This document shows, one piece after another, positions 41,075-58,200 of a stretch of 64,000 bases of DNA. The stretch is from NCBI GenBank assembly GCA_014727915.1, contig WJMO01000005.1, forward strand, positions 1 to 64,000, in the 5' to 3' direction. Under the pieces are notes generated by a model, which worked only from the letters and a program-made list of their open reading frames with translations, did no database searches and was not told where the DNA came from. Source of the DNA: Candidatus Altarchaeales archaeon (lineage in GTDB: Archaea; Altiarchaeota; Altiarchaeia; IMC4; SCGC-AAA252-I15). Within the stretch, counting starts at the first letter, position 1; each line of letters opens with the position of its first letter. Made by a program: the position numbers and the translations under genes.

Positions 41075-41941
41075 CTATTCGTGCCTTATTATCGTGCTCT
41101 CCTTGTCTAACGGGTTATCAACGAATTTTTGCAGTGTCATCCTGCCCTCGGCCACTTCACCGAGGTTGGCCAGCACCGGCAGCAGGTTGTTGTTGTAGAA
41201 CTGCTGTTTACCCATTGCAGTAGACCGTGTGCTATGGCCCGCTTTGAGGGCTGCTTTACCAGCTGCTTGTATCAGCTCTGGCTGAGCCAGTCCTTCACCG
41301 GGCTCCTTCAATCCCAGACTGTCGGCCCTGTCCCATATCCTCCTGCCCTCAACCCTGGCGTCCTCTATGATCTGGCCCAATGTCTTGTCGCAGTCGAAGC
41401 ACTCCCTGAATCTCATGTTGTTTCTGACATGCTCTGGAACAACATCCGCAAGTTTCATATTTTCCAGACTAGTAATCTGGCCTGGGATATGATTCCCTAG
41501 AACCGGGCTGTCCCGGCCTTGCTGCTCCAATGGCACGACCCTCATCGGCGTGGGCGTCAACCTGATCTCTTGCTCTGCGGGTGCCTGCGCACCATTTTCC
41601 AGTGGCCTTCCCTCGCACGTGAACCTGAGCTCGCCCGTGCTCTGAGCCACCTGCTTCATTAAATCCCTGTCTCCCCGCTTTAAAGCTGCCGCCGCCCTCT
41701 CCAACGCCCCCCTAACCTCCTTCATGTCCTCGCTTCTGCCTGTGCTGTCCCGAATAGCCAACAGCGAACTATGGCCGATCTGAGCTGCTTTGTTCGCAAG
41801 TCCCTTGCCCCTTATCTGCATCAGCCCGGGGTGAAGTTCCCCTGATTCGGATGTTAGGTCAACTTCTATGGTCGTCCTGCCACGTTCGTCCACGTTCTTG
41901 CTGACGCCTCTTATGTGCCTACGCTCCAGGGTGACTGCCAT
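41075..41941 (-). CDS. Module-A protein 4 of the 41-46 kb operon
   Basis: 288 aa, soluble. Residues about 5-115 form a domain (module A) shared with its operon neighbours: RRHIRGVSKNVDERGRTTIEV here matches PEDIKGVRTEVGEDGKLAIRV at 46093. Both then have ...HPG or ...PPG, an ...IGHSSLLAI / LGADSLSAI helix, and a Cys near the end of the domain (FTCEG / QGCKT). The C-terminal 150 residues are helical with CFDCDKTLG. No family is recognised. Last gene of a four-gene operon on the minus strand. Confidence 0.65.
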   Translation of the reverse strand: MAVTLERRHIRGVSKNVDERGRTTIEVDLTSESGELHPGLMQIRGKGLANKAAQIGHSSLLAIRDSTGRSEDMKEVRGALERAAAALKRGDRDLMKQVAQSTGELRFTCEGRPLENGAQAPAEQEIRLTPTPMRVVPLEQQGRDSPVLGNHIPGQITSLENMKLADVVPEHVRNNMRFRECFDCDKTLGQIIEDARVEGRRIWDRADSLGLKEPGEGLAQPELIQAAGKAALKAGHSTRSTAMGKQQFYNNNLLPVLANLGEVAEGRMTLQKFVDNPLDKESTIIRHE

Positions 41942-41985
41942 AAAAGCATATGGGAATCGATCAGTTAATAAATAGGGACTTACTC

Positions 41986-43458
41986 CTATCCTTGCCTGTG
42001 GGTGCTGCCCGTGCTCAGCTGCATTCTTGTGAATCCGTCCAATATGGCCTTCGCTCTCCCCTGGTAGTGCTCTCTGGTGCCCGGGGGCAGGGCTTGTGTC
42101 AGCTCTCCCGTGTATCCTGCGAAACTCTCAGGGCTCATCTGCACCGCAACGGTCAGGTCCGCTATGGTCGGGGGCCCCATAACAGTGGAATTCAAAGCCC
42201 TATCAGATGGCGTATTCCTCACTCTCTCGGACGCGTACTTCAACGCCCGGGCGAAACACAACTCACCCGGCTCGCTAGCCTGTATCGTGGGATTTCCCTG
42301 CGGATAGGCTTGTTTCGCCCTCTCGGCCTGGCCGCGGAGGCACTCTCCCCTAACCCATCCTGCGACCTGGTTGACGTAGCGGGCGGCGTTCATGTAGGCG
42401 CTCCTCGCGGTAGCAACCTGCTTTTCATCAGCGGTGGCAGACGTCCGCCTGGCCATCTGGTCCATTGCCACTTGGCTCAGGTGCTCGTCGAGGGTCAGAC
42501 CCCTGCGCTGGGCTGCCCGGGTCATCTCAGATATCCTCTGCCCTATGTAGAGCTTGACGGCATTCGGGTTCTCAAGCTGGGGGTTGGACTTCAGGAACTC
42601 CGCGTCGGAGGCTGGGAACTCCCTGCCACACGCCGCCTCGGCGATGCGCGCGCTCTGCCTCATGATCTGAGCCTGGCTTCCGGGGTTTTCCATGTCGCTT
42701 CCCCGGTTGGGACAGTTCTTCATGTCAACCGTTAGAACGCCGAGCTTCACATCCGACTCCGCGTTTGGAGCGGCTGGTATGTTCTGCTGTACTGCCCCAG
42801 CAGCTGGGACGCTGCCTGTGACCGGCGGGGCCTGGACTTCACGAGCCCGCGGGGGTGCTGGGGCAGCTGGAGGTGTCGGGGGATATCCTACTCTCTGAGG
42901 TGCGACCTGCTCTGGCATGGTCTGCGGGGGCAACACGACCGGCGGCTGTTTTGTCTGCCGGACTACCGGCGGCGGCTCGACCTCCCCCTCCCTATGCCCC
43001 GGTGCCGGCGGCGGCTTTGGAGACTGCCTGATTCCCGTCCTTGGAAGGGGCGGAGGCCTGATGTTTCTGGTGGAGGTCGCAGGCTGGTCTGATGTCACCT
43101 CCCTACCTTCTGATATGAAGCTGAAAGCGTAGCATTTGTCTACTGCAGACTTCCTCTCAGGGTTTATGACTCCTCCTGTTCTGAGGTCGGCGAGGGCGTC
43201 CCCGAAGAAGCTCTGGACCTTAAGCTGAGTGTCCAAGTCTGGGGTGTCGGTCTCCCCCTGGACTTTCTTTATTGCGGACAGTCCTCTCTGCCCCATTGCC
43301 TCGATCTGCTGGTGGGTGCTGCCCGGGGGAACGACCTCCTCGTTTCCCGGCCTCAGATGCACGTATAGTGTGAGCTTCTCCTGCCTGTCGTGGCCGTGGT
43401 CTCCGACTTGGGCTTTGACGCTCTCTATGTGCTCCTCCCTAATCTGTTTTACGGCCAC
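41986..43458 (-). CDS. Module-A protein 3, with Pro-rich linker
   Basis: 490 aa, soluble. Module A (about 3-115): REEHIESVKAQVG...LTLYVHLRPGNEEVVPPG...GQRGLSAIKK, then a Cys-containing strand CYAFSFISEG, close to the second module-A copy of the 758-aa protein (YSLTFRVGNEF). A Pro/Gln-rich linker (about 125-245, PPLPRTG, PPAPPRAREVQ) leads into a C-terminal helical domain of about 240 residues with CGREFPASDAEF, SEMTRAAQRRGLTLDEHL and RGECLRGQAERAKQAYP. The start overlaps the 3' end of the 104-aa gene by 20 bases. Confidence 0.65.
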   Translation of the reverse strand: MAVKQIREEHIESVKAQVGDHGHDRQEKLTLYVHLRPGNEEVVPPGSTHQQIEAMGQRGLSAIKKVQGETDTPDLDTQLKVQSFFGDALADLRTGGVINPERKSAVDKCYAFSFISEGREVTSDQPATSTRNIRPPPLPRTGIRQSPKPPPAPGHREGEVEPPPVVRQTKQPPVVLPPQTMPEQVAPQRVGYPPTPPAAPAPPRAREVQAPPVTGSVPAAGAVQQNIPAAPNAESDVKLGVLTVDMKNCPNRGSDMENPGSQAQIMRQSARIAEAACGREFPASDAEFLKSNPQLENPNAVKLYIGQRISEMTRAAQRRGLTLDEHLSQVAMDQMARRTSATADEKQVATARSAYMNAARYVNQVAGWVRGECLRGQAERAKQAYPQGNPTIQASEPGELCFARALKYASERVRNTPSDRALNSTVMGPPTIADLTVAVQMSPESFAGYTGELTQALPPGTREHYQGRAKAILDGFTRMQLSTGSTHRQG

Positions 43459-43753
43459 CTTCAGATTCTCCAGTATGCTGTCTCTTTATATTCTCAAGCA
43501 GCTTGCTCTTCTCGTCGAGGTCGTGTATTATCTCCTCGTCCAGCCTAACCTTGATGTTCTCCACGTTCTTGGCGCCGAGCTTCTCCAACACCTCCGACGC
43601 GGGCTTGCCCGACAGCTTCCTGAGGAACTCAACGGTGTCCTCGTCCAGTTTTTCAGGGTCAACGTCGACTGTGATGTTCAGCTTGCCGGTCTCAGGGTCA
43701 GTGGACACCACAACCTCCCGGATACCCTCCTTCCTGATCTCAGGCTCCATCAC
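43439..43753 (-). CDS. Module-A protein 2, short
   Basis: 104 aa. It consists of a single shortened module A (residues about 8-75): IREVVVSTDPETGKLNITVDVDP aligns with IKGVRTEVGEDGKLAIRVHLDP of the 758-aa protein. A Leu/Lys/Glu helix follows (DEEIIHDLDEKSKLLENIK). No signal or membrane segment. It lies 63 bases after the 758-aa gene and overlaps the 490-aa gene. Confidence 0.6.
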   Translation of the reverse strand: MMEPEIRKEGIREVVVSTDPETGKLNITVDVDPEKLDEDTVEFLRKLSGKPASEVLEKLGAKNVENIKVRLDEEIIHDLDEKSKLLENIKRQHTGESEGGRKTD

Positions 43754-43816
43754 ATATATACATTAAAAGAGGGGGTTATTTAATGGAATCCCCACACCCA
43801 AGGGCACAGTCTCCCG

Positions 43817-46093
43817 TCACATATCTGCCTTCTCTGTCGTGGCTGCTTTCTCAGCAGATTCAGTTACTGGTTGCTCTGCTCCGCCGGTCAGGCTGGCTAG
43901 CGTGTGTGCCACCACCCTCTGATGGTCTTCCTGTTCCATGGACTTGAGCCGGTCCGCGCCGAGGGCGCTCTGGTACACCATCCCGGCAATCAGCCGCGGA
44001 TCGTCCTTGCCGGTCTTTTCATCCGGGCCGAGCTCCAAGTAGCCTAGCATCTGCTCGGCGCCGAGCCCCAGGGACCGAAGACGTCCTGATATCTCGGCTC
44101 CAATCTGCTCTTGTGTCGCGCCGGCTGGGATGGGATGGGCCAACCTGTCCAGCAACCTCTCACGCTCACCCCCAGCTCCTGATTCCCCTCTCATTCTCCC
44201 GCTTATCTGGGCGAACATCTTTCCGTGTTCCGGCTCCCCCATGGACTCCAGCCTTTCATGTCCAAGGGCCCGGGTGTAAACAGCCCTGGCTATCATCCTA
44301 GGGTCGTCTGCCGGGTATTCCCCTGGTTTGGTGCAGGCTTCGAACTCCTCCGGGGTTATGCCCACGGCCTTCATCCTGTCGGATATCTCTGCGGCGACCT
44401 GCTCCGGCGGGACGTCTGGTTTAACAGGGGATCTTATCCTCTGCTCGATGCTCTGTCTTTCCCCCTCACCCTGCTCGGGAGGCTTGTGTCCCATCTTGTG
44501 AAGTATGTCGTTCACCATTCTGGCGTGTTCTTCACCGGTCATCCTGCCCTCACCGCCTTCCCCTCCGTTGACCCGTTCAGCGCCTAGTGACTGGAGGTAT
44601 ATAGCGTGCGCCCTGTAAAGCGGGTCATCGGGTCTCATGTTCTCGTCTGGCGGGGTCTGAACTGCTTCCAGGAACCTCTCGGATGTTATCCCCCCACCCT
44701 GCAACCTCGACCCTATCTCCGCGGCAATCTCGTCATTGGACGTTCCGGCGGGTATGGTCTCGGCCATGACCCTCTCCCTCATCCTCTCATCCATGGCTGT
44801 GGAGGGCCCGGCATCCTGTCTTGGAGGGCTTGCACCATCCGATGTTTCCCCTGCTGATCGCATGCCCCCCACCATCGCCAGCTCGTCCTCTGATACTATG
44901 CTCCCCAGCTCCCCATCGGTCAGGGCGCTCTCCTTCCTCCTTGCGGCTGCCCTGAGCCTCACCTCCCTATGGGCCTTCTGGTGGGGTCCCAGCCTGAAGC
45001 CCCTACCAGTATTCGGCGTGTACTCGTAGGGTTCCTCTATGAATTCGTTGCCCACCCTGAAGGTGAGGCTGTAGCTCTGGTCCATGCCGTTACGGTCGCC
45101 TGTGAACTCCCCCGACTTGTTCTTCGTGCCGTCGACTGCCGCGTTCAGGAAGTTCTGCGCCTCCAACTGGGTTTGCAGCTCGAAACCATGCGCCTTCTTC
45201 CTTATGGATTCCAATGAAGCCGGCCCAAGTTCTTCAAGCCGGTCGCTTGTCGGCTCCGGCCTTGGAACCATAGACTCACAACCCTCCCCTAACGTGACAT
45301 ACAATTTGACACCGGTCGGTGTCTTCTCGGCTTTGACCTCCTCTATGTCATCCGGCCTAATCGCGTCCGGGCCCCTAACAAAATCCCCTGGCTCTCCCGC
45401 CATAGGGGCTGCTACTGGACTCTCTGTTTTCGCCGTATTCACATCCCCGGTTGCAGTAGGGTCCCCGCCTGGAACAGCCCGTCTCTCAGCGGTCGCATCC
45501 TGACCTTCCGCTGAAGTTCTTACCTGCTGGTCTACGTCGCGCCTATCCTGCCTTTCCGATGTTGGCGCATCAGAAGTTGGGGTGCCGGGTCCTGGTGCGG
45601 TCGTAGCCTCTGGGTTAGCCGCTGGCCTCGGCGTCTCTGATGTTGCAGGTGCCGCCCTCTCGCCCTTTTCTGGTGGCATGTCCGCTGATTTCCCCCTTCT
45701 CTCGCCTCCTTTCTGCGCGGGCTGGGGCATGTCTCCTTCCACGAACTCGATCGTCTTGCACCCCTGGTCTATCAGGCCTGCCGTGATAAACGACAGGTCT
45801 CCAGTATCTCTTATCTCGTTGCCTGCCAGGTCGAGGAACTCCGCCGCCCTCTGCCTCTCATGCAAGCTCCTGTCTTTTGGGGATGTTCGGGCGTGTATTG
45901 CACTCAGCGAGTCCGCGCCGAGGTGTTCGAACCTGTCTGCCGGCCCCAAACCCGCGAACTCAGGACCCGGAGGAATAACACCCGCCTTCGGGTCCAGGTG
46001 AACGCGGATTGCCAGCTTACCATCCTCTCCCACTTCAGTGCGCACGCCCTTGATGTCCTCAGGCCTCAGCTGCTGGATCCTCTTGGCCATCAT
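43817..46093 (-). CDS. 758-aa modular protein (two module-A copies, three module-B repeats)
   Basis: Soluble protein built of repeats. Module A occurs at about 8-115 and again at 245-355, separated by a Pro/Thr/Ala-rich linker (120-240). Three module-B repeats of about 80 residues follow at about 444-534, 556-632 and 650-731. Each has the order I-P-A-G-x3-(E/D)-(E/Q)-(I/V)-x-A-E-I-x-x-R-(L/M), then (G/A)-(I/L)-(T/G)-x-E-x-(F/M), a D-D-P-x-x-x-A-x-x-Y-x-x-(A/S)-L-G core, R-(L/V) and a closing helix. The same module B is found once in the tail of the VirB6-like protein at about residues 1160-1243, including AYTRAL versus VYTRAL. No known family. First gene of the operon; its ATG faces rpoE1 across an AT-rich gap. 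Confidence 0.65.
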   Translation of the reverse strand: MMAKRIQQLRPEDIKGVRTEVGEDGKLAIRVHLDPKAGVIPPGPEFAGLGPADRFEHLGADSLSAIHARTSPKDRSLHERQRAAEFLDLAGNEIRDTGDLSFITAGLIDQGCKTIEFVEGDMPQPAQKGGERRGKSADMPPEKGERAAPATSETPRPAANPEATTAPGPGTPTSDAPTSERQDRRDVDQQVRTSAEGQDATAERRAVPGGDPTATGDVNTAKTESPVAAPMAGEPGDFVRGPDAIRPDDIEEVKAEKTPTGVKLYVTLGEGCESMVPRPEPTSDRLEELGPASLESIRKKAHGFELQTQLEAQNFLNAAVDGTKNKSGEFTGDRNGMDQSYSLTFRVGNEFIEEPYEYTPNTGRGFRLGPHQKAHREVRLRAAARRKESALTDGELGSIVSEDELAMVGGMRSAGETSDGASPPRQDAGPSTAMDERMRERVMAETIPAGTSNDEIAAEIGSRLQGGGITSERFLEAVQTPPDENMRPDDPLYRAHAIYLQSLGAERVNGGEGGEGRMTGEEHARMVNDILHKMGHKPPEQGEGERQSIEQRIRSPVKPDVPPEQVAAEISDRMKAVGITPEEFEACTKPGEYPADDPRMIARAVYTRALGHERLESMGEPEHGKMFAQISGRMRGESGAGGERERLLDRLAHPIPAGATQEQIGAEISGRLRSLGLGAEQMLGYLELGPDEKTGKDDPRLIAGMVYQSALGADRLKSMEQEDHQRVVAHTLASLTGGAEQPVTESAEKAATTEKADM

Positions 46094-46193
46094 AGAAAAC
46101 TGGGAAACACACCCCTAAATACCGCATATTCAAAATTATTCAAAGAATTTTCAAAATAATCCTGACTTTTCCCCCTATAGTTGTTGTTTGCTG

Positions 46194-46268
46194 CTTTTAT
46201 ACCCTATTGGCGTAATATTATAGGTTTCAGATGCACCTGAGTCTGCCATTGCACTGGCAGAATGCAGG
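46194..46268 (+). promoter_or_regulatory. Promoter and hairpin leader of the rpoE1 operon
   Basis: cttttata (46194-46201) and a second AT-rich box taatattata (about 46213-46222) are TATA-like. Between them and the ATG at 46301 lies a perfect 7-bp hairpin, tctgcca (46242-46248) with tggcaga (46255-46261). It is extended by cctg/cagg (46236-46239 with 46265-46268) across a 2x3 internal loop. If the first box is used, the hairpin is in the mRNA leader. Confidence 0.4.
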
Positions 46269-46300
46269 GAAGTATGTGAAGATCTGGGTGTGCAAATAAA

Positions 46301-46927
46301 ATGTACAAGATAGTTACAGTTGAGGACACGGTCAGGGTCCCGCCGGCTAGGTTCAGCGAAGACCTGGAGACCGTGATAACGCAGGAACTGGAGAACATGG
46401 TAGTCGGCAGGATAGACAAGAGCCTTGGAGTGGTGCTGGCTGTCACAGGCATCGACGAAGTCGGCGACGGGAAGATCATACTAGGCGACGGCGCAGTATA
46501 CTACAGCGCAAGATTCAAGATACTAGTCTACGAGCCAATGGTCAACGAGGTAGTCGAGGGCGAGGTCACTGAGGTCACGGAATTCGGCGTGTTCGTCGGG
46601 TTCGGCCCCATCGACGGGCTCATACACGTGTCCCAGATAACCGAGGACTTCATGAGCTACGACCAGAAGAACAGCTCGTTCGTGGGCCGGGAATCAAACA
46701 AGATACTCAAGGTAGCGGATGTCGTACAGGCCAGGATAGTCACGGTGAGCATGAAGTCCCGGGCCACGGAGTCGAAGATCGGATTGACGATGAGGCAGCC
46801 CTACCTGGGCAAGCTGGAGTGGATAGAGGACGACCGGAAGAAGCTCGAGGAGAAGATAAAGGCCGAAGACAACAAGGAAAAGGAGAAGGAAAAGAAGAAG
46901 GGCGGCAAGAAGGAGGGTGATAAATGA
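46301..46927 (+). CDS. rpoE1: RNA polymerase subunit Rpo7/RpoE1 (Rpb7 homologue)
   Basis: 208 aa. The N-terminal tip domain (MYKIVTVEDTVRVPPARFSEDLE, then ELENMVVGRIDKSLGVVLAV) and a C-terminal S1 domain (EGEVTEVTEFGVFVGFGPIDGLIHVSQI) define the stalk subunit, which pairs with Rpo4. It ends with a Lys-rich tail (EKEKEKKKGGKKEGDK). The ATGA overlap couples it to spt4. Confidence 0.96.
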   Translation: MYKIVTVEDTVRVPPARFSEDLETVITQELENMVVGRIDKSLGVVLAVTGIDEVGDGKIILGDGAVYYSARFKILVYEPMVNEVVEGEVTEVTEFGVFVGFGPIDGLIHVSQITEDFMSYDQKNSSFVGRESNKILKVADVVQARIVTVSMKSRATESKIGLTMRQPYLGKLEWIEDDRKKLEEKIKAEDNKEKEKEKKKGGKKEGDK

Positions 46928-47100
46928 GGGCCTGCAAGTCATGCATGCGGTTGAGCGAGGAGGAGCGCTGTCCAGTCTGCGGCTCCAACACGAGCCAGTA
47001 CTGGAGCGGCTACTTCGCAGTATTGGATCCTGAGACCTCACAGATAGCGAAGAAGATGGGCATAAAGTCCCCCGGCCAGTACGCGCTCAAGGTGAGGTAG
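46924..47100 (+). CDS. spt4: Transcription elongation factor Spt4 (RpoE2)
   Basis: 58 aa, too short for many gene callers. A four-Cys zinc ribbon CKSC...CPVCG is followed by SSQYWSGYFAVLDPETSQIAKKMGIKSPGQYALKVR, the Spt4 core. It forms the Spt4-Spt5 complex that keeps RNA polymerase processive. ATG overlaps the rpoE1 stop by 4 bases; the dephospho-CoA kinase gene starts 5 bases after its stop. Confidence 0.96.
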   Translation: MRACKSCMRLSEEERCPVCGSNTSQYWSGYFAVLDPETSQIAKKMGIKSPGQYALKVR

Positions 47101-47105
47101 ATTGC

Positions 47106-47594
47106 ATGGAGTTGACGCCCCGGCTCAGGGAAGAGCTGAAGAAGCCCCTCGGCGACGTAGTGACGGAAACATCCAAGATTCCCGTTGACGCGCCGCTCAT
47201 ATGCGTCGGTGACACCGCATCGGACACGATGCTCTCAGCGGGCTACAAGCCCAAGCTCCTAGTCTATGACGGCAGGACCGGAAGGCACGAGATCGGCGTG
47301 TCGGAGACGATAAGCTCATACGATGCCGTGGAGCGAACCGTCGCTAACCCGCCCGGAAAGCTTGAGGAAGGCGTTTTCGAGCTGTTCAGGGAGGTCTTGG
47401 ATGGCGGTGGGCCTGGCAGGGTCTACGTCGAAGGCGAGGAGGATTTGACCGCGCTCGCGGCCATAAGGGAGGCTGCAGTCGGTTCGGTGGTCGTCTACGG
47501 GCAGCCGGGCGAGGGCCTGGTAGTCGTGGACGTCAACGAGAAAACGAAAAATAGGGTTAACAAGATAATCGAGGATATGGAAGATGGAAGTTGA
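47106..47594 (+). CDS. GTP-dependent dephospho-CoA kinase (DUF359)
   Basis: 162 aa. LTPRLREELKKPLG, ICVGDTASDTMLSAGYKPKLLVYDGRT, TVANPPGKL and VYVEGEEDLTALAAI...VVYGQPGEGLVVVDV mark the DUF359 family, shown in Thermococcus to phosphorylate dephospho-CoA with GTP in the last step of archaeal CoA synthesis. Its place between spt4 and S24e is conserved in archaea. The last 11 bases overlap S24e. Confidence 0.95.
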   Translation: MELTPRLREELKKPLGDVVTETSKIPVDAPLICVGDTASDTMLSAGYKPKLLVYDGRTGRHEIGVSETISSYDAVERTVANPPGKLEEGVFELFREVLDGGGPGRVYVEGEEDLTALAAIREAAVGSVVVYGQPGEGLVVVDVNEKTKNRVNKIIEDMEDGS

Positions 47595-48090
47595 TATGAT
47601 CGAGGACAAGGAGAACCCCCTCCTAAACAGGAGGGAGATACGGTTTAAGGTGTCCTACCAGGGTCCGACCCCTGCCAGGCAGGATGTGCGGAGCAAGATA
47701 ATTGCGATGCTGAACTTGGACAAGGAACTCACCCTGTTGGACAAGCTGGATCCTCAGCAGGGGTCCCAGGTTGCGCTTGGATACCTTAAGTCCTACGGTG
47801 ACAAGGCTGCGATGTCCATAGAGCCGGAGTACCTGTTGAAGAGGAACTTCGAGGTCAAGGAGGAGCCGAAGGAAGACGGTGGCTCGCCTCCCTCAGGTGA
47901 TGATGGGGGCAGCCCGGACGGAGAGGGCGAAAGCGGCGGTGACAAGGCCGCGGCTGAGGGCGGAGACGCTAAGTCTGAGAAGTCTGGGGCAGGCAAGCCG
48001 GATGAGAAGGCGGAGAAGGATGATGAGAAAGGCGAGGATAAGGCTAAGGCAGGCTCTGAAGACGAGACCGGCCCTAAGGAGGGTGAGTGA
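47584..48090 (+). CDS. rps24e: Ribosomal protein S24e with long charged tail
   Basis: 168 aa. The first ~100 residues ([51 protein letters not shown]) are a full S24e. The remaining ~65 residues are Gly/Asp/Glu/Lys/Ser-rich ([17 protein letters not shown], then [12 protein letters not shown]) and surely disordered. Archaeal S24e usually stops near 100-130. The tail parallels the extended L24e tail in this genome. Confidence 0.95.
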
Positions 48091-48323
48091 TGGCTAAAGG
48101 CAAGAAGAAACGCAGGGAAAGGGAGAGGAAGGAGAAGGTGCCCAAGAGGAAGAGCGCCAAGTGGAAGGTATATGATGTCTCAGGAGAGGCTGTTAAGAGG
48201 AGTCTGAAATCATGCCCCAAATGTGGTGACGGCGTTTTCCTAGCGGACCATAAGACGCGCATGACCTGCGGGAAATGCGGTTACACGGAGTTCACCCGAA
48301 AGGGAGAAGAGGAAGAAAAATAG
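48090..48323 (+). CDS. rps27ae: Ribosomal protein S27ae
   Basis: 77 aa from the ATG at 48090, which overlaps the S24e stop by 1 base (a GTG 3 bases earlier is also possible). The basic N-terminus is followed by a zinc ribbon [27 protein letters not shown] with four Cys. There is no fused ubiquitin, as in archaea generally. It is somewhat longer at the N-terminus than the usual ~50-65 aa. Confidence 0.95.
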
Positions 48324-48358
48324 GAGCACTTAACTGCATTCACTCCCAATGTTTTCCA

Positions 48359-48907
48359 ATGAGGGTCGTGGGTTTGGACCTGGCCGGAAGCCCTAAGAAC
48401 AGCACAGGATTCTGCATTTTGGAGGTTGAGGGCGGGAAGACCGTCCATACCCGGCTGATACACTCTGACGAGGAGATACTGTCGGATGTCACGTCCGCTG
48501 ACCCGGACCTCGTGGCAGTTGACGCGCCCCTCATCTACGAGGGTGTGCGCAGGAACTGCGATGACCTGCTTCGCGAATATGGTGCCCTGCCCGTGACCTT
48601 GAAGGGCATGGAGGTTCTTGCAGAACGCGGGAGAAAGATCGCATCCGACCTGAAGCGATTGGGCCTGGATTATATCGAGGTTTTCCCTACTGCGTCCGCG
48701 AAGATACTGGGAGTATACAGCAAGAACGACTTCACACTCCAGAAGAACATGATGGCATTGGACCTGAAGGGGGACCTGAACACCAAGATACTATCAAGGG
48801 ACGAGTTGGACGCGGTCCTCGCCTCGTTGACGGGATTCCTCTATCTCCAGGGCCAGTCCGAGCCGGTCGGCGACGAAAACGGCCTCGTTCACATACCTCT
48901 CGTCTGA
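48359..48907 (+). CDS. DUF429-type predicted RNase H-fold nuclease
   Basis: 182 aa from the ATG at 48359 (earlier in-frame starts run into S27ae). RVVGLDLAGSPKNSTGFCILE at the N-terminus, DLVAVDAPLIYEGVRRNCDDLLREYG and VFPTASAKILG are typical of DUF429 proteins, with Asp residues at the RNase H metal positions. The activity is not demonstrated. Possibly leaderless, with cacttaac about 25 bases upstream. Confidence 0.8.
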   Translation: MRVVGLDLAGSPKNSTGFCILEVEGGKTVHTRLIHSDEEILSDVTSADPDLVAVDAPLIYEGVRRNCDDLLREYGALPVTLKGMEVLAERGRKIASDLKRLGLDYIEVFPTASAKILGVYSKNDFTLQKNMMALDLKGDLNTKILSRDELDAVLASLTGFLYLQGQSEPVGDENGLVHIPLV

Positions 48908-48943
48908 TGCTATAAAAGCGTCTAATACCATAGTTGAAACGTA

Positions 48944-50317
48944 ATGGGCGAATACGATTTCATCGTCGTGGGCGGGGGGCCGGCTGGAATGTTCGCCGCA
49001 TACGCCCTATCAGAAGCTGGAAGGAAGGTTCTGTTACTCGATGAGGGCAAGAACGTTTCAGACCGGCATTGTCCCATGGCCGAGTCTGGCGCATGCGTAA
49101 ACTGCAGGCCCTGCGATGTTATGACCGGACTGGGGGGTTCCGGGCTTTACAGTGATGGCACCCTGAACTTGAGGCCTGACATCGGCGGCGACCTCAGTCA
49201 GCTGACTGGCAGTGATGACCGGGCCTGGGAGCTGGTCGAACGTGTGGACGAGATATTCCTGCGTCATGGGGCTCCCGATAGGCTATACGGGGGGGACGAG
49301 GAGAAGATCGCCGAGTTGAAGAGGCGCTGTGCCTCTGACGACATCAAGTTCATAGACATACGTCAGCGTCACATAGGCACGGAGAACACTCCTGCGGTCA
49401 TCGAATCCATTGCGGAGCATCTGAGGGGTTCCGGAGTTGATATCATGGTGTCCACCAGGGTTGAGGACATCATAGTGGAGGATGGCCGGTGTGTCGGGGT
49501 CAAGACCGTCAAGGAAGAGTTCAGGGCTGGCGGCGTTCTACTGGCTCCTGGCAGAGTAGGGGCAAAGTGGGTTGATGAGCTGGTTGCTGAGCACGGTATA
49601 AAGGCTGTTTTCGGCCCTATCGACGTGGGGGTGAGGGTTGAGGTTCCAGCGTTGATAATGGAGTCCGTCATCGAGGTCAACCATGACCCTAAGTTCCACA
49701 TACGAACCCCAACATATGACGATTTTGTCCGTACATTCTGCACTAACCACCAAGGATGGGTTGTGAAGGAGAGCTATGATGGCCTGGTCGGAGTTAACGG
49801 GCATAGCATGCTCAAGGACATGTCTGGCAACACTAACTTCGCCTTCCTGGTGAGGGTGGCTTTGACTGAGCCAGTTGAGGACACGGTCGAATACGGCCGC
49901 GCGATAGCCGACCTGGCCACCACAATAGGGGGTGGGAAGCCGATACTACAGCGTCTCGGAGACCTCAGGCATGGCCGCAGGTCGCACCCCCATAACATCG
50001 CGGATAACCTGTTCGAGAACACGTTGAAGGATGTCACGCCCGGGGATGTTTCGATGGCGTTGCCTCACCGGATCGTCGAGGACATACTAGAGGGGTTGGA
50101 GAAGTTGAACGATGTGATACCTGGGGTGAACTCGGATTCCACATTGGTCTATGCCCCGGAGCTGAAGTTCTACAGCATGTGCGTGGAGGTAGGGTCCAGG
50201 ATGGACTCTAGCATCCCTGGATTGCACGTTGCAGGTGATGGGGTGGGGTTGAGCAGGGACATAGTTAATGCGGCTGCGACTGGTTTGCTGGCTGCTGAGG
50301 GAATGCTGCCACGATGA
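48944..50317 (+). CDS. FAD-dependent dehydrogenase (COG2509-like)
   Basis: 457 aa. The Rossmann [17 protein letters not shown] (8-24) is followed by [16 protein letters not shown] and a [26 protein letters not shown] motif typical of the COG2509 group. [11 protein letters not shown] and a closing [22 protein letters not shown] give the FAD-binding end. Substrate unknown; some members reduce polyprenyl or act in thiazole-like pathways. The stop overlaps the trm56 ATG by 4 bases. Confidence 0.88.
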
Positions 50318-50823
50318 ACGCGTCCGTTTTGAGGCTGGGTCACAGGCACAGCAGGGACAAGCGCATCAGCACACATGTCGCGTTGACTGCCAGGGCGTTC
50401 GGCGCCTCCAGGATAGTCTATGATGGTCGTGCTGTTGATGTTAAGGAGAGCGTCGATGAGATAACCTCCTCATGGGGTGGTGACTTCAAGGTCGAGTTCA
50501 CGGAAGGCTACCGTGATTTCATCAACTCCTTCGAGGGCTTGAAGGTTCATCTCACAATGTATGGCCTGCCCCTGGATGATGTGGTGGCCGACTTCGGCCT
50601 TGAGGGGGATATTCTGGTTGTGGTCGGAGGTGCGAAGGTGCCTTCGGATGTGTTTGAGCTGGTGGACTACAACGTTGCAGTGGGTAATCAACCGCACTCG
50701 GAGGTCGCGGCTCTTGCAGTGTTCCTTGACCGCATATTCGGGGGTGGTGAGCTGGACAGGGACTTCAAGGGCAGGATGAGAATTGTCCCTCAGAACCGCG
50801 GGAAGAAAGTATTGGAGGGATAG
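50314..50823 (+). CDS. trm56: tRNA (cytidine-56-2'-O)-methyltransferase Trm56
   Basis: 169 aa, a SPOUT enzyme specific to archaea. [82 protein letters not shown] (the knot region) are diagnostic. It methylates C56 in the T-loop. Its stop is 5 bases before the end of the convergent VirB6-like gene. Confidence 0.95.
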
Positions 50824-50828
50824 TCGAC

Positions 50829-53800
50829 TTATTCGTCTCCTCGGTCGTCGTCTTCGCTTCCCCCGGTTATGCCATAGTCTATCTGGCCTGACTCGTCTCG
50901 GTCTTCAAGCATGTCCTCCAACTGCCTTCCGACGCTCTTTGTGCGCTGCCTACCGAAACCTCCCATGTAGGTCATGTGTTCCTTGAGTGTTTGCATTCCT
51001 GCTCTGTCCTCACCCATCATCTCAGCGCCTAAATCCCCCACCTTCTCCTGGGCTGGGGATACGCCAGTCGAACCTGAGACTTCGCTATCTGGTGCTGCCT
51101 GGCTCGCCTGGGGTCCTGAACCCTCCTCGGTTTCTGATGGCTGTGCGGTTCCCGCATCTGCTGATGCGGTTGGCGCAGGCTCAGATGTCGGCGTTGGCTG
51201 CTGGCTCGCGTCCGGCTCTTGCGCAGGCTGTGATGTTGCGGTCGGCTGCTGGGTTGCATCAGGTTCTGGGGTTGATGGTGTGGTGTCAGGCTGTTGTGCG
51301 CTGGTCTCTGCCGCTTCGGGTTCCGGCGTCGTTGGCTGCTGTCCGTCGCCTGCTGCGGGTGCTCCCTGCTGGCTCTGGTCTGGCTGCGCCTCCGCCCCGC
51401 CCTCGGCTGCCTGGGCTTCGTTGGCTCTCATGTGGTTGAGTGTTGACTGTTTCAAAGCGTCGTTCTGGTCGGCGTTCATGCTCACCGCCTGGTCGTGTGT
51501 TAGGGCTCTCGTGTACGCTGTTGATGCGGTCTGCCCTCCGCTCCCGTATTCCGGGGCCTCGCCGGCTGGGGTGTCCACGAACTGTTGGAAGTCATCAGCG
51601 CTCACTCCCGCCTCTTGCATCTGCTGGGCCATCTCCGCCCCCTGCCGGTCTGTTTCAGCGTCTATCCTCGGATGGGGCCTCTGCTGCTGTTGTCCTCCGG
51701 TCCCCGCCTGTCCGCCCCGTCTGCTCTGGCTTCCGGTTGAACCTGCGGTCGTGGATGTTCCCCTACCATCCCTGCGCGCGCTGTATGCTGTCACAACGCT
51801 TTGGCCCGCGCCCCAGGCGCCGCGCACTCCCATCTTCCCAAGCCTCCATCCCAGGGGGAATGAGCTCAAACCCCCGGTCGCGGCGAACTTCAATGCTTCC
51901 ATGGGTGCGTGTATAAAAGCAATCTTGGCGGCTGCCACTCCCAGGTCCATGCCAATCCCTGCGGCTTTCCCTAGCACGAACCCTATCCTCGAGCTTGCCC
52001 TGTCCTGCCCCCTATAGCTTGTGACGGTATCGCGTATCCCCGTGGTTGACATGCCATCGAATACTCCGCTGAAGAACGTGCTCTCCCTTACGCCCCCCCT
52101 GACGGTGTTCAGCCCTTCCGATAGTTGTCCCGGGTCTGTTCCGAGCTTCCGAGCGGACAGTTGCATCTGCCGCTGTCTTATCTTGTTCAAAGTCGCCTCT
52201 CTTGTCGCCGGGTTCTGGAGGGCTGCGTTCACTCCCGCGGTCCCGGAGGGCATCATCGCGCCTCCCGGGTAGTCTGTGCGGCCGACGTCCTGGACGGCAT
52301 CCTGCCAGCTGGCTCCGCCTACGGCCTCCAGCAACTGGCTGTCGCTGGCGTTCCTCAGGTCTCCGACAGTGTTTATTCCTGCTTGCTGGAGGTTAGCCAC
52401 GGTCGTGTCGGAGTTAAGCCCCAGTGATTCCATGACCTCCCTGTTGTATCCGCTGTCTATCCCCAGGCCCTGGGCTGACTGCCCGATTGCCCTTCCAATA
52501 CCCGTCACTTCCATGACCTTGCTTACCGTGTAGGCCGATATTCCCAACCCCACCAGGGTCCCCGCTCCCATCCCTCCTATGCCTGCTATAGTGCCTATTA
52601 TGGCGAGCGCCTGGACTGTCATCGCCCATTTGCCGAGGCCCCATGCGGTCCCGATCACGCCCGCGCTTGCCATGGCTCCTAGGATGTTGCTTGCGACGTA
52701 TGATAGGCCTGCTCCTACGTTGTATATGCCCATTATGGACTTGCCAACAAGAGTCTCCGACCTGTAGAATGGTGTTTTCGGCTGCTGGGAGGCTGTGCTT
52801 GGCTGACTGCTTGGCCCGCCAGTGGTCTCTCCTAATCCCCTGCCTAGTCCGAAGCCCCATCCCCCGACCCATCTTCCGAAGGACCAGAGCCCGCTTCCAA
52901 CACCGAACATCCGCCCCTGGCGTGCGAACCATTTGCCCCACCTCTGCCTTCTCGCTGCTGTCCTCTTCTGATACCTCTCCGCAAAGCCTTTCATGCCTGG
53001 CATCTTGGAGAGCACCCTACTTGCTTTAGCTCTCTGGCCTACCCTAGCCCTTCTTGATATGGACTTCAATTCGCTGGTTCCCAGGCCGCCCTGCTCTGCC
53101 TCGTCACCTCCCATGAACATCTTTGAGATGTTCCGGCCCACGAATGACCCGCTCATGCCGATCGCACCCAACGCACCCGCATTATAGGACCACTTGGCCG
53201 CTCTCAAAAGGCTTCTCCCTATCATGTTCCCTGTCTTGGGCAGGGCTCCTCCTATGCCCATGCCTATGAACATGCCCAGCGGACCCCCAGCCAACGCGCC
53301 GATGGCTCCGCCTATAACCATTCCCATACCGCGTTTTCTGACCTGTCCCACACCCCACATGGCAGCCTTCTGCACGTGCTTACCAAATCCTAGCCCTACT
53401 CCCATGCCTATCGCAAGCCCGAGGGGGCCTCCCAGGGCGAGTCCGATGCCGGCTGATATGGCGATGCCCATCGCCCGGTGACCCAGGTATCCTCCGACGG
53501 CCACTCCCGCTCTCTTAGCCCATCCCGCGCCATAGTATGCGCCAAGTCCGATGCCGTATCCGGCCCATCCCAGCCCGTAACCGGCATAGTATGCTCCTTT
53601 GCCTGCGAGCCACGCGCCCTTGCCGGCCAGCCACAGTCCAGCGCCAGCAGCCATTCCCGCCACACCGATCAATGCTCCCAGACCGTATCCTCTCCCCAGC
53701 AGTCCTACGCTCCCTCTCATCAGAGAACCTCCCAGTCCGCTCAGACCCTTCGTAGCAGCCCAGCCTATGCCCATACCCAATCCCTTTAGTCCTGCCCAAC

Positions 53801-55160
53801 CGTATGACAGGGCACCGCTGCCAAGCTTACCTGCTGCGCCGCTGACAGTCTTCCAAGCCTGCCCAACCCGTCCTTGCTCCCATCTCTTAGCAGTCTGGCT
53901 CCACTTCCGCCTCCTCTCCGATGGCCTCTTACCCGGTTTCTTGCCGCTTTTAGGCCCTCCCGGCCGTTTTTTCATCTTCTTCCCGAGCCTTGATATGCTT
54001 CCCACCCCTGCTGACAGTCCGGCGGCGACCACGGCTTCCGCGCTCTGAGCCTGCATCATCTGCCCCGCCCCGACCATTGCAACACCTGCGAAGCCGGGGG
54101 TCAGCTGCCCCGCCCCAGATAGTATTGCCCCTATCATCGCAAGCGCTCCTGTGACTATCAAGGGGGAGATGATTATCATGCACATCAGGGAGATGGCCGC
54201 GAAAACGGTGAAATTCGACTCTACGGTCGGCCGGGCCTCCATCACTATCCCCGTTATCAGCACCCACATTGCCATGACGACATTCACCATAGCCCATGTA
54301 AGGCTGTACTTCAGGAACGTGCGCCCTATGCTCTTGGTGAAGTCCCACAGGTACAGGAGGCAGGTCAGAGGCATCATTATCGCCATCAGATGGATTATTG
54401 TATATCTCAACATGATCATCGTCACCGCCAGCAGGCCTACTATCTGACCGCAGCAGAAGGAGAAAAGATAGGCCTTGTTGTCCTTGCCTATCCCCTTGTA
54501 CGAGGATGCTATGCTCTTCCCAAAGTCCGGGCTGGTTGTGACCTGCTGGTATAGGCCGTCGATCCTGTTATAGCAGTGGTCCGGCACATCATATACTTCC
54601 GCGCATGTAAGCGGGGGCGGCCCGGGGTTGGCTATGGGCGGGGGGTCCTTCATTATCACGCCGCCTATCAGGCTGACCGTGATCTGGTATGAGATGTCAA
54701 TGAGCATCTGGTAGAAGTAAGGGGAGAAGGGCACTATGATAAGTGCGAGCAGCAGCCTCTGGAGCTGCGCCTTTGCGGCCGCTCTCTCTCCCGGGCTGTT
54801 GGAGAATATCATCATCTTTATGGCGGTTATGAGTATTGCGAATATGACCAGGGGCATGATCCACCGCATCACCATCCCGGCCATTAACAGCGTGTTGCCC
54901 TGGTTTATGACGGGCCTTCCAAGGGTTTCATTGCTTAGGCTCCAGGGTATGAGGTTTATCAAGAGGGCGGAGTCCCCCATGAAAGTATGCAATATGAACG
55001 CGTAGAAGTCTATGACCAGATTGGAGAACCATTCGCTAACCCCCTTTATCACGTCTCCTGAGATGGCTGCGGCACTCTGTGAAAAAACCAGTATCAACAG
55101 TATTGCTGACGCAGCTTTAGCCTTCTTCGCAGAATAAACCGTCTCTAAGGATGTTTTCAT
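50829..55160 (-). CDS. 1443-aa VirB6/TrbL-like polytopic protein with module-B tail
   Basis: A signal-like segment (18-33) precedes about six hydrophobic stretches: 48-60, 92-118, 134-170, 232-272, 283-306 and 318-348. The largest outer loop (170-230) has two cysteines (LTCAEVYDVPDHC), and SFCCGQIVGLLAVTMIMLRYTIIHLMA follows. This order matches VirB6/TrbL (and CedA-like) inner-membrane channel subunits of conjugation machines. After residue 360 comes a basic stretch and a long Gly/Ala/Met-rich region (about 430-660) with repeats such as GGPLGMFIGMGIG, then about 500 residues of mixed sequence. One module B (1160-1243) is shared with the 758-aa protein, and a Pro/Gln/Thr-rich tail rich in acidic residues ends it. 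It lies 50 bases downstream of the giant surface-protein gene. Confidence 0.6.
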   Translation of the reverse strand: MKTSLETVYSAKKAKAASAILLILVFSQSAAAISGDVIKGVSEWFSNLVIDFYAFILHTFMGDSALLINLIPWSLSNETLGRPVINQGNTLLMAGMVMRWIMPLVIFAILITAIKMMIFSNSPGERAAAKAQLQRLLLALIIVPFSPYFYQMLIDISYQITVSLIGGVIMKDPPPIANPGPPPLTCAEVYDVPDHCYNRIDGLYQQVTTSPDFGKSIASSYKGIGKDNKAYLFSFCCGQIVGLLAVTMIMLRYTIIHLMAIMMPLTCLLYLWDFTKSIGRTFLKYSLTWAMVNVVMAMWVLITGIVMEARPTVESNFTVFAAISLMCMIIISPLIVTGALAMIGAILSGAGQLTPGFAGVAMVGAGQMMQAQSAEAVVAAGLSAGVGSISRLGKKMKKRPGGPKSGKKPGKRPSERRRKWSQTAKRWEQGRVGQAWKTVSGAAGKLGSGALSYGWAGLKGLGMGIGWAATKGLSGLGGSLMRGSVGLLGRGYGLGALIGVAGMAAGAGLWLAGKGAWLAGKGAYYAGYGLGWAGYGIGLGAYYGAGWAKRAGVAVGGYLGHRAMGIAISAGIGLALGGPLGLAIGMGVGLGFGKHVQKAAMWGVGQVRKRGMGMVIGGAIGALAGGPLGMFIGMGIGGALPKTGNMIGRSLLRAAKWSYNAGALGAIGMSGSFVGRNISKMFMGGDEAEQGGLGTSELKSISRRARVGQRAKASRVLSKMPGMKGFAERYQKRTAARRQRWGKWFARQGRMFGVGSGLWSFGRWVGGWGFGLGRGLGETTGGPSSQPSTASQQPKTPFYRSETLVGKSIMGIYNVGAGLSYVASNILGAMASAGVIGTAWGLGKWAMTVQALAIIGTIAGIGGMGAGTLVGLGISAYTVSKVMEVTGIGRAIGQSAQGLGIDSGYNREVMESLGLNSDTTVANLQQAGINTVGDLRNASDSQLLEAVGGASWQDAVQDVGRTDYPGGAMMPSGTAGVNAALQNPATREATLNKIRQRQMQLSARKLGTDPGQLSEGLNTVRGGVRESTFFSGVFDGMSTTGIRDTVTSYRGQDRASSRIGFVLGKAAGIGMDLGVAAAKIAFIHAPMEALKFAATGGLSSFPLGWRLGKMGVRGAWGAGQSVVTAYSARRDGRGTSTTAGSTGSQSRRGGQAGTGGQQQQRPHPRIDAETDRQGAEMAQQMQEAGVSADDFQQFVDTPAGEAPEYGSGGQTASTAYTRALTHDQAVSMNADQNDALKQSTLNHMRANEAQAAEGGAEAQPDQSQQGAPAAGDGQQPTTPEPEAAETSAQQPDTTPSTPEPDATQQPTATSQPAQEPDASQQPTPTSEPAPTASADAGTAQPSETEEGSGPQASQAAPDSEVSGSTGVSPAQEKVGDLGAEMMGEDRAGMQTLKEHMTYMGGFGRQRTKSVGRQLEDMLEDRDESGQIDYGITGGSEDDDRGDE

Positions 55161-55210: not shown

Positions 55211-58200
55211 CTATGCCTTACCGTCGAATTCGTCCCTTGCCTTCGCGAAGTCCAGGGCCTTCCCACTGAAGAACCTGTAGGACATTACAGCCGCGAAGGC
55301 TATCAGCAACACCCACAGGTTGTCCATCAGGTAATCGCAGAATTCCGGGGGCTTGTCCACTGGGACGGTGTCCACGAACGGGACTGACCTCTTGAAACCA
55401 TGGTCGTCGTGGCAGGTTATGACTGCCGTGATCAGCCGGTCCACGGGGAACATTATCTCCTCGTTAAGGTCGTACCATCCAGTGTATTCTATGTACGGGT
55501 GCTGGAACTGTATGTAGAAGTGCTTGCAGTATGGGTCGTACCCGTCTTCTGAGCTCTGGTTCGTGCATACGTTAAGCACTGCCGGCCATACCTTTATTAT
55601 CCTGGAGTTCTCGTTGAAGTCCGATTCCAGGTAGAACTCTTCAGGCGGGGGCTTGTTGACCCTCACCGTAAGGCCTCCGCTTCCGGCTCCGTGTTGTGCT
55701 CCGTCGGGGCAGATGGGAGCGTCTCCGAAGGCGGGGAAGTCCTGGCTCTGGAAGGGGGTGTAGACTTCAATGTCGGTGAATCCTAGCTCGTACTCTGTGA
55801 GCGAGTTGCTGTCTAGTATGAGCGTGTACGACTGTGGCGCAATGCCCTTCGGCTCGCATTCTTTGAGGTATTCTATATTGCATTTGCTCTCTCCGAAGTT
55901 CCATTTGTACCTGAACTGGAAGTGGTCCAGCCAGTAGGCTTTGAACTCCTCCTCGGCGCAGTGGTTCCTGTACTTGCTGGGCACTCCCTCGCATGGGACC
56001 AGCCCAGACAGAACCCACTTGTTCAGGTCCTTGCAGGTCTCGTTGTCGATGGGGTAGAGGTTTTCGAACTCCTCCTTGTATTCGCAGTCGCACCTGCCCC
56101 CCTCGCATACCAGATCCGCTATCTGGTTGCACATTGGCGGGCAGTCCTGGATAGAAGAGCACTGGTAGTCGACGTCCCTCCACTCTTCGCTGTCGCAGTA
56201 TAGCGCGTACCTCACATACGCTTTGCCTATGGGCTTGCTCTTCTTCAGGAATCTCACGTTGGTCCACTCGTCAACCCTCCAGTTGTCGTCGTCCAGGCCA
56301 CGCTCAACATCCTGCATCCTCCAGTAAAGCGCTGCGAAGTCGTAGTAGTGCGGTTCGTCCTCGTGGAAGTTCCTTAGCAGGCCGATGTTGGAGGATATCT
56401 CGTATATGTAGTTGTAGCATTCAGCACGGCCCTTGTCAACAAGCCATAGGGGGTGCTTCCAGGTGTACTGTGAGCCGTATGCGCTGAACTGGTCTATGAA
56501 GAAGTGGCTCTTCTTGGATGGGTTGTACGTCCACCTGACATACAGTGGGTCGCTTGTCTCGTATTCCAAGTCTATCTCCTGGCCTGGCGGGGTCAACCGG
56601 GTCTTGTAGCATTCCTTGGCCAGGTCGAGGAGCCTTGCGTTCTCCTCGGTGACCTCCTTCCAGTCCTGGGGAAGTGTCGACTGCAACGCGGTCCCGTCAT
56701 GCCAGGGGTAGTACTTCTTCGGCGTGAAGTCCATCATAAGGTATTGTTCGTAAGCGTCTTCTATGGTTAGTGTGAACCCGTCGAATAGGTCGTATACGAA
56801 TCTTCCGGGGCTCCTTGTCGACTCCTCGTCCACGGCTTTGAAGTTCAGGTAGGCGAAGGCCCAGTTCTCGTTGCTGCTGTCCTCGTGTCCGTGCTGTATC
56901 GTCCCGTTCACCTTTATCACCGCCTCGGAGTTCCCCGAGTCTATGGGGTTCTCCACCCTCAGATGGTCTCCGTAGTCGTCAGCCCATATCCTCGAATAGT
57001 CCTTCATCTTCTCGTAGACTATCTCCCACTCGCACGGTCCCTTGTCCTTCGTAACCAGGTAGTCTGCGAGGTTTACGCTGTCGTGGTGCCAGCACCCCCA
57101 GCAGGTGTAGTCGCACCTGCAGTCGTGGTAGTAGTAGCATTCCAGCTCTATGGGCACCCCGTTGCATGTGGTCCAGTAGGTGCACTCGCACCACGAGTGC
57201 GCGGGCGGGTTGTCGTTATCCCACTGGAAGGGTATGGGGTCCTGGGTGTATGGGGTCCTGGGCTGGTTGCCCCGGCAACAGCAGGGCGGCGTGAAGTCCC
57301 CGGCGTACACTTCATTGTGGGTAACGAACCATTCCGTCTCGCATGTTATGTCGTTGACTATGATCTCCTCCCACTGCTCCCACCTGTAGCTGATGACCTT
57401 CTCCTCGAGCCTGCTGCAACCCTGCCAACCGCACTGTTTGACCAGCAGCTCCCGTTTCATCTCGTTTATTACGCTGTACTTGAGCCCCACGTTCAGGTAC
57501 CTGGTCTCCGGGCTCAGCTGCACCTCCTGCTTGTCCTCGTGCATGACCGAAGCAGGCGCCGGCGGCTTCTCGGTCAGCAGGTTGTCCTTTCCATATAACT
57601 TGTTGCTTGTCTTGGCCTTGCTGAAAGATTGCACGTCAACTACGCCGTGGTTCTCGTCGTATTCCGTTACCATGATGTCCATCTGGGCGAACGGCTCCTG
57701 CCCGGGGTTTCTCGGGTATGTGTGAACCTCTTTCCTCTGCATCCTACCGCATGATTTCGGGATGTGGGCTGCGGCGTCGACGGCGTAGGGGTCCACTGGC
57801 ATTCCATCGACTACCTTCCCTCCTGTGAATCCTCCATGCCCTGACATGACCACGTTGCACTGGTGCGCTCCACCGGACACGTCAGACCTCTTGCACGTTG
57901 TTGGTTCCATCGAGTTGCAGGTCCCTGGCATGCAACCCATGCATCCTCCGTCGACCTCCCCTCCGCCTGCCATGTCGCATCCTTTGATCCCATCCTCCTT
58001 GTCCCAGTCGCCTCTCATCGCCCGCCCGCAGTTGCACTCCTCTGATATGCACTCCAGCGTCCGGCCGTCCGGCCCGTTGAGGAACGACTTGTACGGTTTC
58101 ACGGTGGCGTCTATGCCCCAGAAGTCGCCGTTGCAGACCGGCAGCGGCTCCCCATACTGGTACTGGTCTCCGAAGTTCCGGGCCTCGAACCATATGGGGC

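Follow-up and report, generated by a model that had tools for sequence, protein, structure and literature searches.

A domain described in none of the libraries searched is almost certainly shared by descent between two proteins encoded in this Altiarchaeota genome. Three copies of the domain, here called the module, lie in P1, a soluble protein from an operon of related soluble proteins, and a fourth lies in the C-terminal tail of P2, a polytopic membrane protein resembling VirB6/TrbL. As judged from sequence comparison, the lineage-specific operon appears to be tied in this way to one member of the Altiarchaeota set of VirB6-like proteins. We take the orphan domain and the domain link between P1 and P2 to be real and offer the functional link as a hypothesis, since a shared module hints, short of proof, at the two proteins working together. 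All coordinates refer to the window, the whole stretch of 64,000 nucleotides that was analyzed.

Four copies of one module

The two genes that carry the module, and its copies within them, are as follows.

43817..46093, minus strand: P1, 758 aa, soluble and acidic, with two N-domains, a Pro-rich linker and three C-terminal modules
44483..44794, minus strand: module copy 1, P1 residues 434-537 (profile search)
44180..44464, minus strand: module copy 2, P1 residues 544-638 (profile search)
43874..44170, minus strand: module copy 3, P1 residues 642-740 (profile search)
50829..55160, minus strand: P2, 1443-aa VirB6/TrbL-like polytopic protein with a long C-terminal tail
51423..51662, minus strand: module copy 4, P2 tail, residues 1167-1246 (profile search, AlphaFold model)

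Each of the P1 copies spans about 95-105 residues, and in the alignment they are 33-37% identical to copy 1. The profile used against P2 was built from these three copies only, the P2 copy never being included. Run against the window in all six frames, it recovered the P2 segment with 23.6 bits (E = 1.9e-6), the runner-up open reading frame reaching 6.7 bits, and across the 1.81-Mb genome the P2 copy scored 30.1 bits (E = 6.4e-7). Only four places in the genome match this profile, with no fifth copy up to E = 5. The first-pass annotation had placed three modules in P1 and a fourth in the P2 tail; the genome-wide search confirms this arrangement, and the positions given there for the copies are correct. 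It had also proposed a profile search for a significant match between the two proteins, and here the real P2 tail scored 26.5 bits, whereas 10,000 shuffles of it reached 9.7 at most and its reversal 0.4. Of the motif pattern that it described, the homology of the four copies stands, whereas the DDP motif has been lost from the P2 copy, the most diverged of the four at 20-26% identity. Profile comparison found no significant extra copy in P3, P4 or P5, the other proteins of the operon, and none in the tails of the other VirB6-like proteins.

The view that the module belongs to no named family has likewise held up, as profile and sequence searches gave no family match and no PDB match. AlphaFold, given an input alignment consisting of the four module copies, predicts a five-helix fold for the P2 copy (pLDDT 82.6, pTM 0.71). 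Because that alignment mixes the copies, the model is not independent proof of a shared fold, and the claim of one is carried by the sequence statistics instead. Foldseek returned no match of the model to the PDB below E = 4, and the viral structure library gave none below E = 1.7. Several candidate identities were tried and rejected. RecX, which gave the best sequence match in the PDB (52 positions, E = 0.02), was not among the fold matches; matches to HrpF and NOTCH-type proteins were insignificant or compositional; and a BID or other solved secretion-signal domain was set aside, as the model has no fold likeness to any solved structure.

The operon of soluble proteins

P1 is the first of four genes read in one direction (P1, P5, P3, P4; 46093 to 41075, minus strand), spaced by gaps of 44-63 bases or by a 20-base overlap.

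45740..46093, minus strand: N-domain, first copy in P1 (profile search, model)
45059..45361, minus strand: N-domain, second copy in P1 (profile search)
43439..43753, minus strand: P5, 104 aa, little more than an N-domain on its own, with a 20-base overlap with the start of P3
41986..43458, minus strand: P3, 490 aa, with an N-domain, a Pro-rich linker and a C-terminal region without match
41075..41941, minus strand: P4, 288 aa, with an N-domain and a C-terminal region without match

A second shared domain, absent from the first-pass annotation, unites these proteins: N-terminal and about 110 residues long, it is common to P1, P5, P3 and P4 and occurs twice in P1. Profiles built with one member left out recovered P3 at E = 3.8e-11, P5 at E = 1.6e-7 and P4 at E = 3.1e-6, and the five N-domains are homologous. 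Because this domain is common to all four proteins, 41075-46093 is a single operon of related soluble proteins. Hydropathy revealed no transmembrane-like segments in any of the four, and P1 carries a net charge of -37. The N-domain is modeled by AlphaFold as beta-beta-alpha-alpha-alpha-beta (pLDDT 71.5), with no meaningful match among solved structures.

The operon lies between a PIN gene and RPB7. In three genomes of the same family (G001, G004 and G006) and one of another family (G018) RPB7 follows the PIN gene immediately and the operon is missing, which makes the operon lineage-specific at this site. Neither the module nor the N-domain was found in the nearest 25-30 related genomes, P1 had no match among 100 relatives and no relatives in GTDB genomes, phages or plasmids, and viral contigs held no relatives of the module or of P3. 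Module and operon were seen in this genome only, among those searched, and both are to all appearances specific to the lineage.

About 5 kb separate the P1 and P2 genes, the interval being occupied by unrelated translation and housekeeping genes. Within it, a gene for a 457-aa FAD-dependent oxidoreductase-like protein (48944-50317) is inserted between DUF429-like and Trm56-like genes that are neighbors in G002 and G004.

P2 and the giant surface protein P6

Further features of P2, and the gene that adjoins it directly upstream, are listed here.

53991..54884, minus strand: P2 VirB6-like membrane domain, about residues 93-390
50883..50948, minus strand: P2 motif GxQLEDMLEDRDES at the extreme C-terminus (residues about 1405-1426), also present in the G002 orthologue
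55211..61936, minus strand: P6, giant surface protein of 2241 aa, rich in Cys, carrying an M23 peptidase domain and a C-terminal membrane anchor

Hydropathy places about eight transmembrane-like stretches, some adjoining or overlapping, within residues 16-336 of P2, which thus has the at least five core transmembrane segments expected of VirB6/TrbL. No VirB6 model in Pfam picks up P2, even with the threshold at E = 1; two of six aligned Altiarchaeota relatives, all of them homologous to P2, match PF04610 (best E = 7.1e-6). Its membrane domain has homologues in all seven genomes of the family, and the nearest GTDB relatives are, by name, Candidatus Altiarchaeota/Altiarchaeales MAGs. In a phylogenetic tree P2 groups with the copies of G002 and G003 (support 100/97), and a larger group around it (98/92) adds those of G004, G005 and G007. 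The VirB6-like nature first proposed for P2 is upheld by its place in the VirB6/TrbL-like group and by the presence of T4SS genes in the genome.

With 24 K+R vs 3 D+E, the large loop behind the VirB6 domain has a strongly basic character; further glycine-rich hydrophobic segments lie between this domain and the tail, and the tail is of low complexity on both flanks of the module. The assignment of loops, such as the central cytoplasmic one that has a conserved Trp in VirB6/TrbL, is uncertain in proteins as divergent as these. None of the P2 orthologues in the family has the module. The G002 orthologue carries other, unrelated repeats at the module position and retains the C-terminal motif, and the module has therefore been added to an otherwise conserved P2. 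Separately, residues about 911-962 of P2 (52276-52430) form a helix-hairpin-helix-like stretch, LQQAGINTVGDLRNASDSQLLEAVG, and similar stretches occur in the tails of the VirB6-like proteins of G004, DLEKAGIQTRGELANMTDDQMDRMV, and G005.

P6 is strongly acidic (net -200); its M23 domain is located close to the N-terminus, and the anchor at its C-terminus, AFAAVMSYRFFSG, is conserved. Its homologues have a C-terminal membrane anchor in common, with the motif SYRFF or similar, and one lies directly upstream of the P2 orthologue in each of G002, G003, G004, G005 and G007. The M23 domain was recognized only in P6 and in none of the four homologues scanned, several of which are cut by contig ends. 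By gene order and homology, P2 is the VirB6-like protein that is paired with P6, the pair being kept by orthologues that lack the module.

Type IV secretion genes and VirB6-like paralogues

The genome encodes VirB4 (PF19044, 4e-26), PrgI/VirB3 (PF12666, 6e-9) and a VirB2-type pilin (PF18895, 3e-7). A T4SS-like locus on another contig combines VirB4 (P-loop TraG), PrgI and the T4SS pilin with two VirB6-like genes; a further pair is located at C12:244-253 kb, and P2 is the fifth VirB6-like protein found in the genome. The module is present in P2 only, one of these five proteins. Both P2 and the operon are located away from the VirB4 locus, while paralogues stand beside VirB4 here and in other genomes. 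For the coupling protein VirD4/T4CP, nothing beyond short stretches matching PF02534 at about 20 bits was found.

Elsewhere in the Altiarchaeota, as many as five VirB6-like genes stand in tandem, and several of these groups adjoin PrgI and VirB4. Five-gene arrays were observed in another Altiarchaeota family at L086 649-9945, L087 11338-16713, L088 8026-13321, L089 5693-14292, L090 6990-12931, L097 3597-9574 and L098 3912-10301, with PrgI and VirB4 beside the array in L088 and L090, and such arrays are reminiscent of those of Rickettsiales. Within the family of the present genome the VirB6-like genes are dispersed (1 + 2 + 2 here). Four genomes of the family encode, beside VirB6-like genes, a small soluble protein (about 150 aa) in which a CPxC...CxxCG stretch resembles a zinc ribbon (L044 9340-9828, L039 1824-2297, L105 7170-7622 and L106 8001-8468). 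The zinc-ribbon protein of G004 was considered as a module carrier and rejected at 8.6 bits only, within the shuffle range. For the G002 and G004 tails, a low-sensitivity search found no modules in common with soluble proteins of the same genome. In G003, an HExxH-like stretch raised the suspicion that a 1685-aa VirB6-like tail and a soluble protein of 840 aa are fused and separate forms of each other; this is unsupported (E = 0.67).

Possible roles of the shared module

The first-pass annotation read the shared module as suggesting a common machine and as a possible docking or substrate-recognition domain for secretion or DNA transfer. That reading is partly supported, by the homology of the copies, the lack of a named family and the VirB6/TrbL-like affinity of P2; the common machine and the role of the module stay conjectural. 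Our tentative preference, held at somewhat less than even odds, is that the P2 tail displays a docking domain and that the P1 paralogues bind the same partner or P2 itself. On this view P2, the partner of P6, would belong to a type IV secretion-like system of Altiarchaeota that has about five VirB6/TrbL-like proteins, and the P2 tail would have gained the five-helix domain in this lineage. Lying in the cytoplasm, the tail domain would act as a docking site for P1, a multivalent adaptor whose three copies may make homotypic contact with the tail copy or bind the same ligand. P5, P3 and P4 might join P1 through their shared N-domains, and the assembly could bring soluble cargo or regulators to a P6-P2 channel, cargo and direction of transport being conjectural. 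In favor of docking are four homologous modules with no others in the genome, and the restriction of the module to P2 among the five VirB6-like proteins. The N-domain common to the operon proteins, their lack of transmembrane-like segments, the T4SS genes of the genome and the P6-P2 pair kept in five other genomes also speak for it. The basic loop after the VirB6 domain suggests a cytoplasmic tail, as expected for that side of the membrane. The operon and the module are both missing in family relatives that have P2 orthologues, a pattern that is compatible with a link between P1 and P2 and cannot establish one; with a single module-bearing genome (n=1), co-occurrence carries no statistical weight. 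Against docking, the operon adjoins neither P2 nor the VirB4 locus, no copy of the module was found in P3, P4 or P5, and the glycine-rich hydrophobic segments before the tail make its membrane side uncertain. Two VirB6 paralogues of Anaplasma are reported to expose their C-terminal domains on the surface (PMC7648143), which also counts against a cytoplasmic tail.

A general-purpose helical domain, for instance one with a common cellular ligand, may instead have been copied into the P2 tail in this lineage by domain shuffling, P1 and P2 working independently; since the feature is seen in one genome only, we hold this to be nearly as likely as docking. It would fit the divergence of the P2 copy with its lost DDP motif, the fast-changing tails of P2 proteins with other repeats at the module place in the G002 orthologue, and the unrelated genes that separate the two loci. 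However, a generic domain would be expected in many proteins and this one is found in two, and in one of five VirB6-like paralogues.

Rather improbable, in our judgment, is that P1, P3, P4 and P5 are secreted effectors, with the N-domain or the module as a translocation signal that the P2 copy mimics or receives. Adjacent genes that combine a common N-domain with a Pro-rich linker and with C-terminal regions of different kinds may resemble effector families that share a targeting domain, but no toxin, peptidase or other effector family was recognized in the C-terminal regions of the operon proteins, the coupling protein is limited to weak local matches, and the sequences offer no apparent sign of export. 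That the fourth copy resembles the others by chance, or through the composition of Ala/Gln-rich helices, as its low-complexity flanks and low identity might suggest, is largely refuted by the shuffled and reversed tails and the genome-wide search, and is very improbable.

Relation to known systems

P2 is like VirB6/TrbL (PF04610) in its polytopic membrane domain, in its relatives that match PF04610 and in its paralogues beside VirB4, PrgI and pilin genes. It differs in having no Pfam match, in lying away from the VirB4 locus, in its length of 1443 aa and in its orphan tail module. The closest parallel to several VirB6 copies per genome is found in Rickettsiales, where rvhB6a-e and Anaplasma virB6-1 to -4 are tandem extended VirB6 paralogues (PMC2653234, PMC7648143). 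Outside the VirB6/TrbL domain these proteins, too, have long regions that change fast and in some cases contain repeats. They are bacterial, however, and a non-exhaustive literature search met no report of a tail domain that also occurs in a separate operon of soluble proteins.

The MPF-FATA-type T4SS of monoderms and archaea is of the PrgI/VirB4 type (PMC12102498). The present genome resembles it in its PrgI-type VirB3, VirB4 ATPase and T4SS pilin. To our knowledge, the five VirB6-like proteins and the P6-P2 pair are additional to the MPF-FATA set. BID and XVIPCD are effector-recognition or docking modules of type IV systems. Like them, the module is a small domain common to soluble proteins that are associated with a T4SS-like machine; unlike them, it has no sequence or fold match to solved structures and is here also part of a channel protein.

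Little was found on type IV secretion in Altiarchaeota in the literature searched. A new archaeal secretion apparatus, in which P6 and the VirB6-like P2 would act together and an orphan docking domain on a cytoplasmic tail would recruit soluble operon adaptors or cargo through the repeats, is unlikely as a whole. The module itself represents a domain family described in none of the libraries searched, and if it is a docking domain, it would offer a direct handle on recruitment to an archaeal VirB6-like channel that is paired with a giant surface protein.
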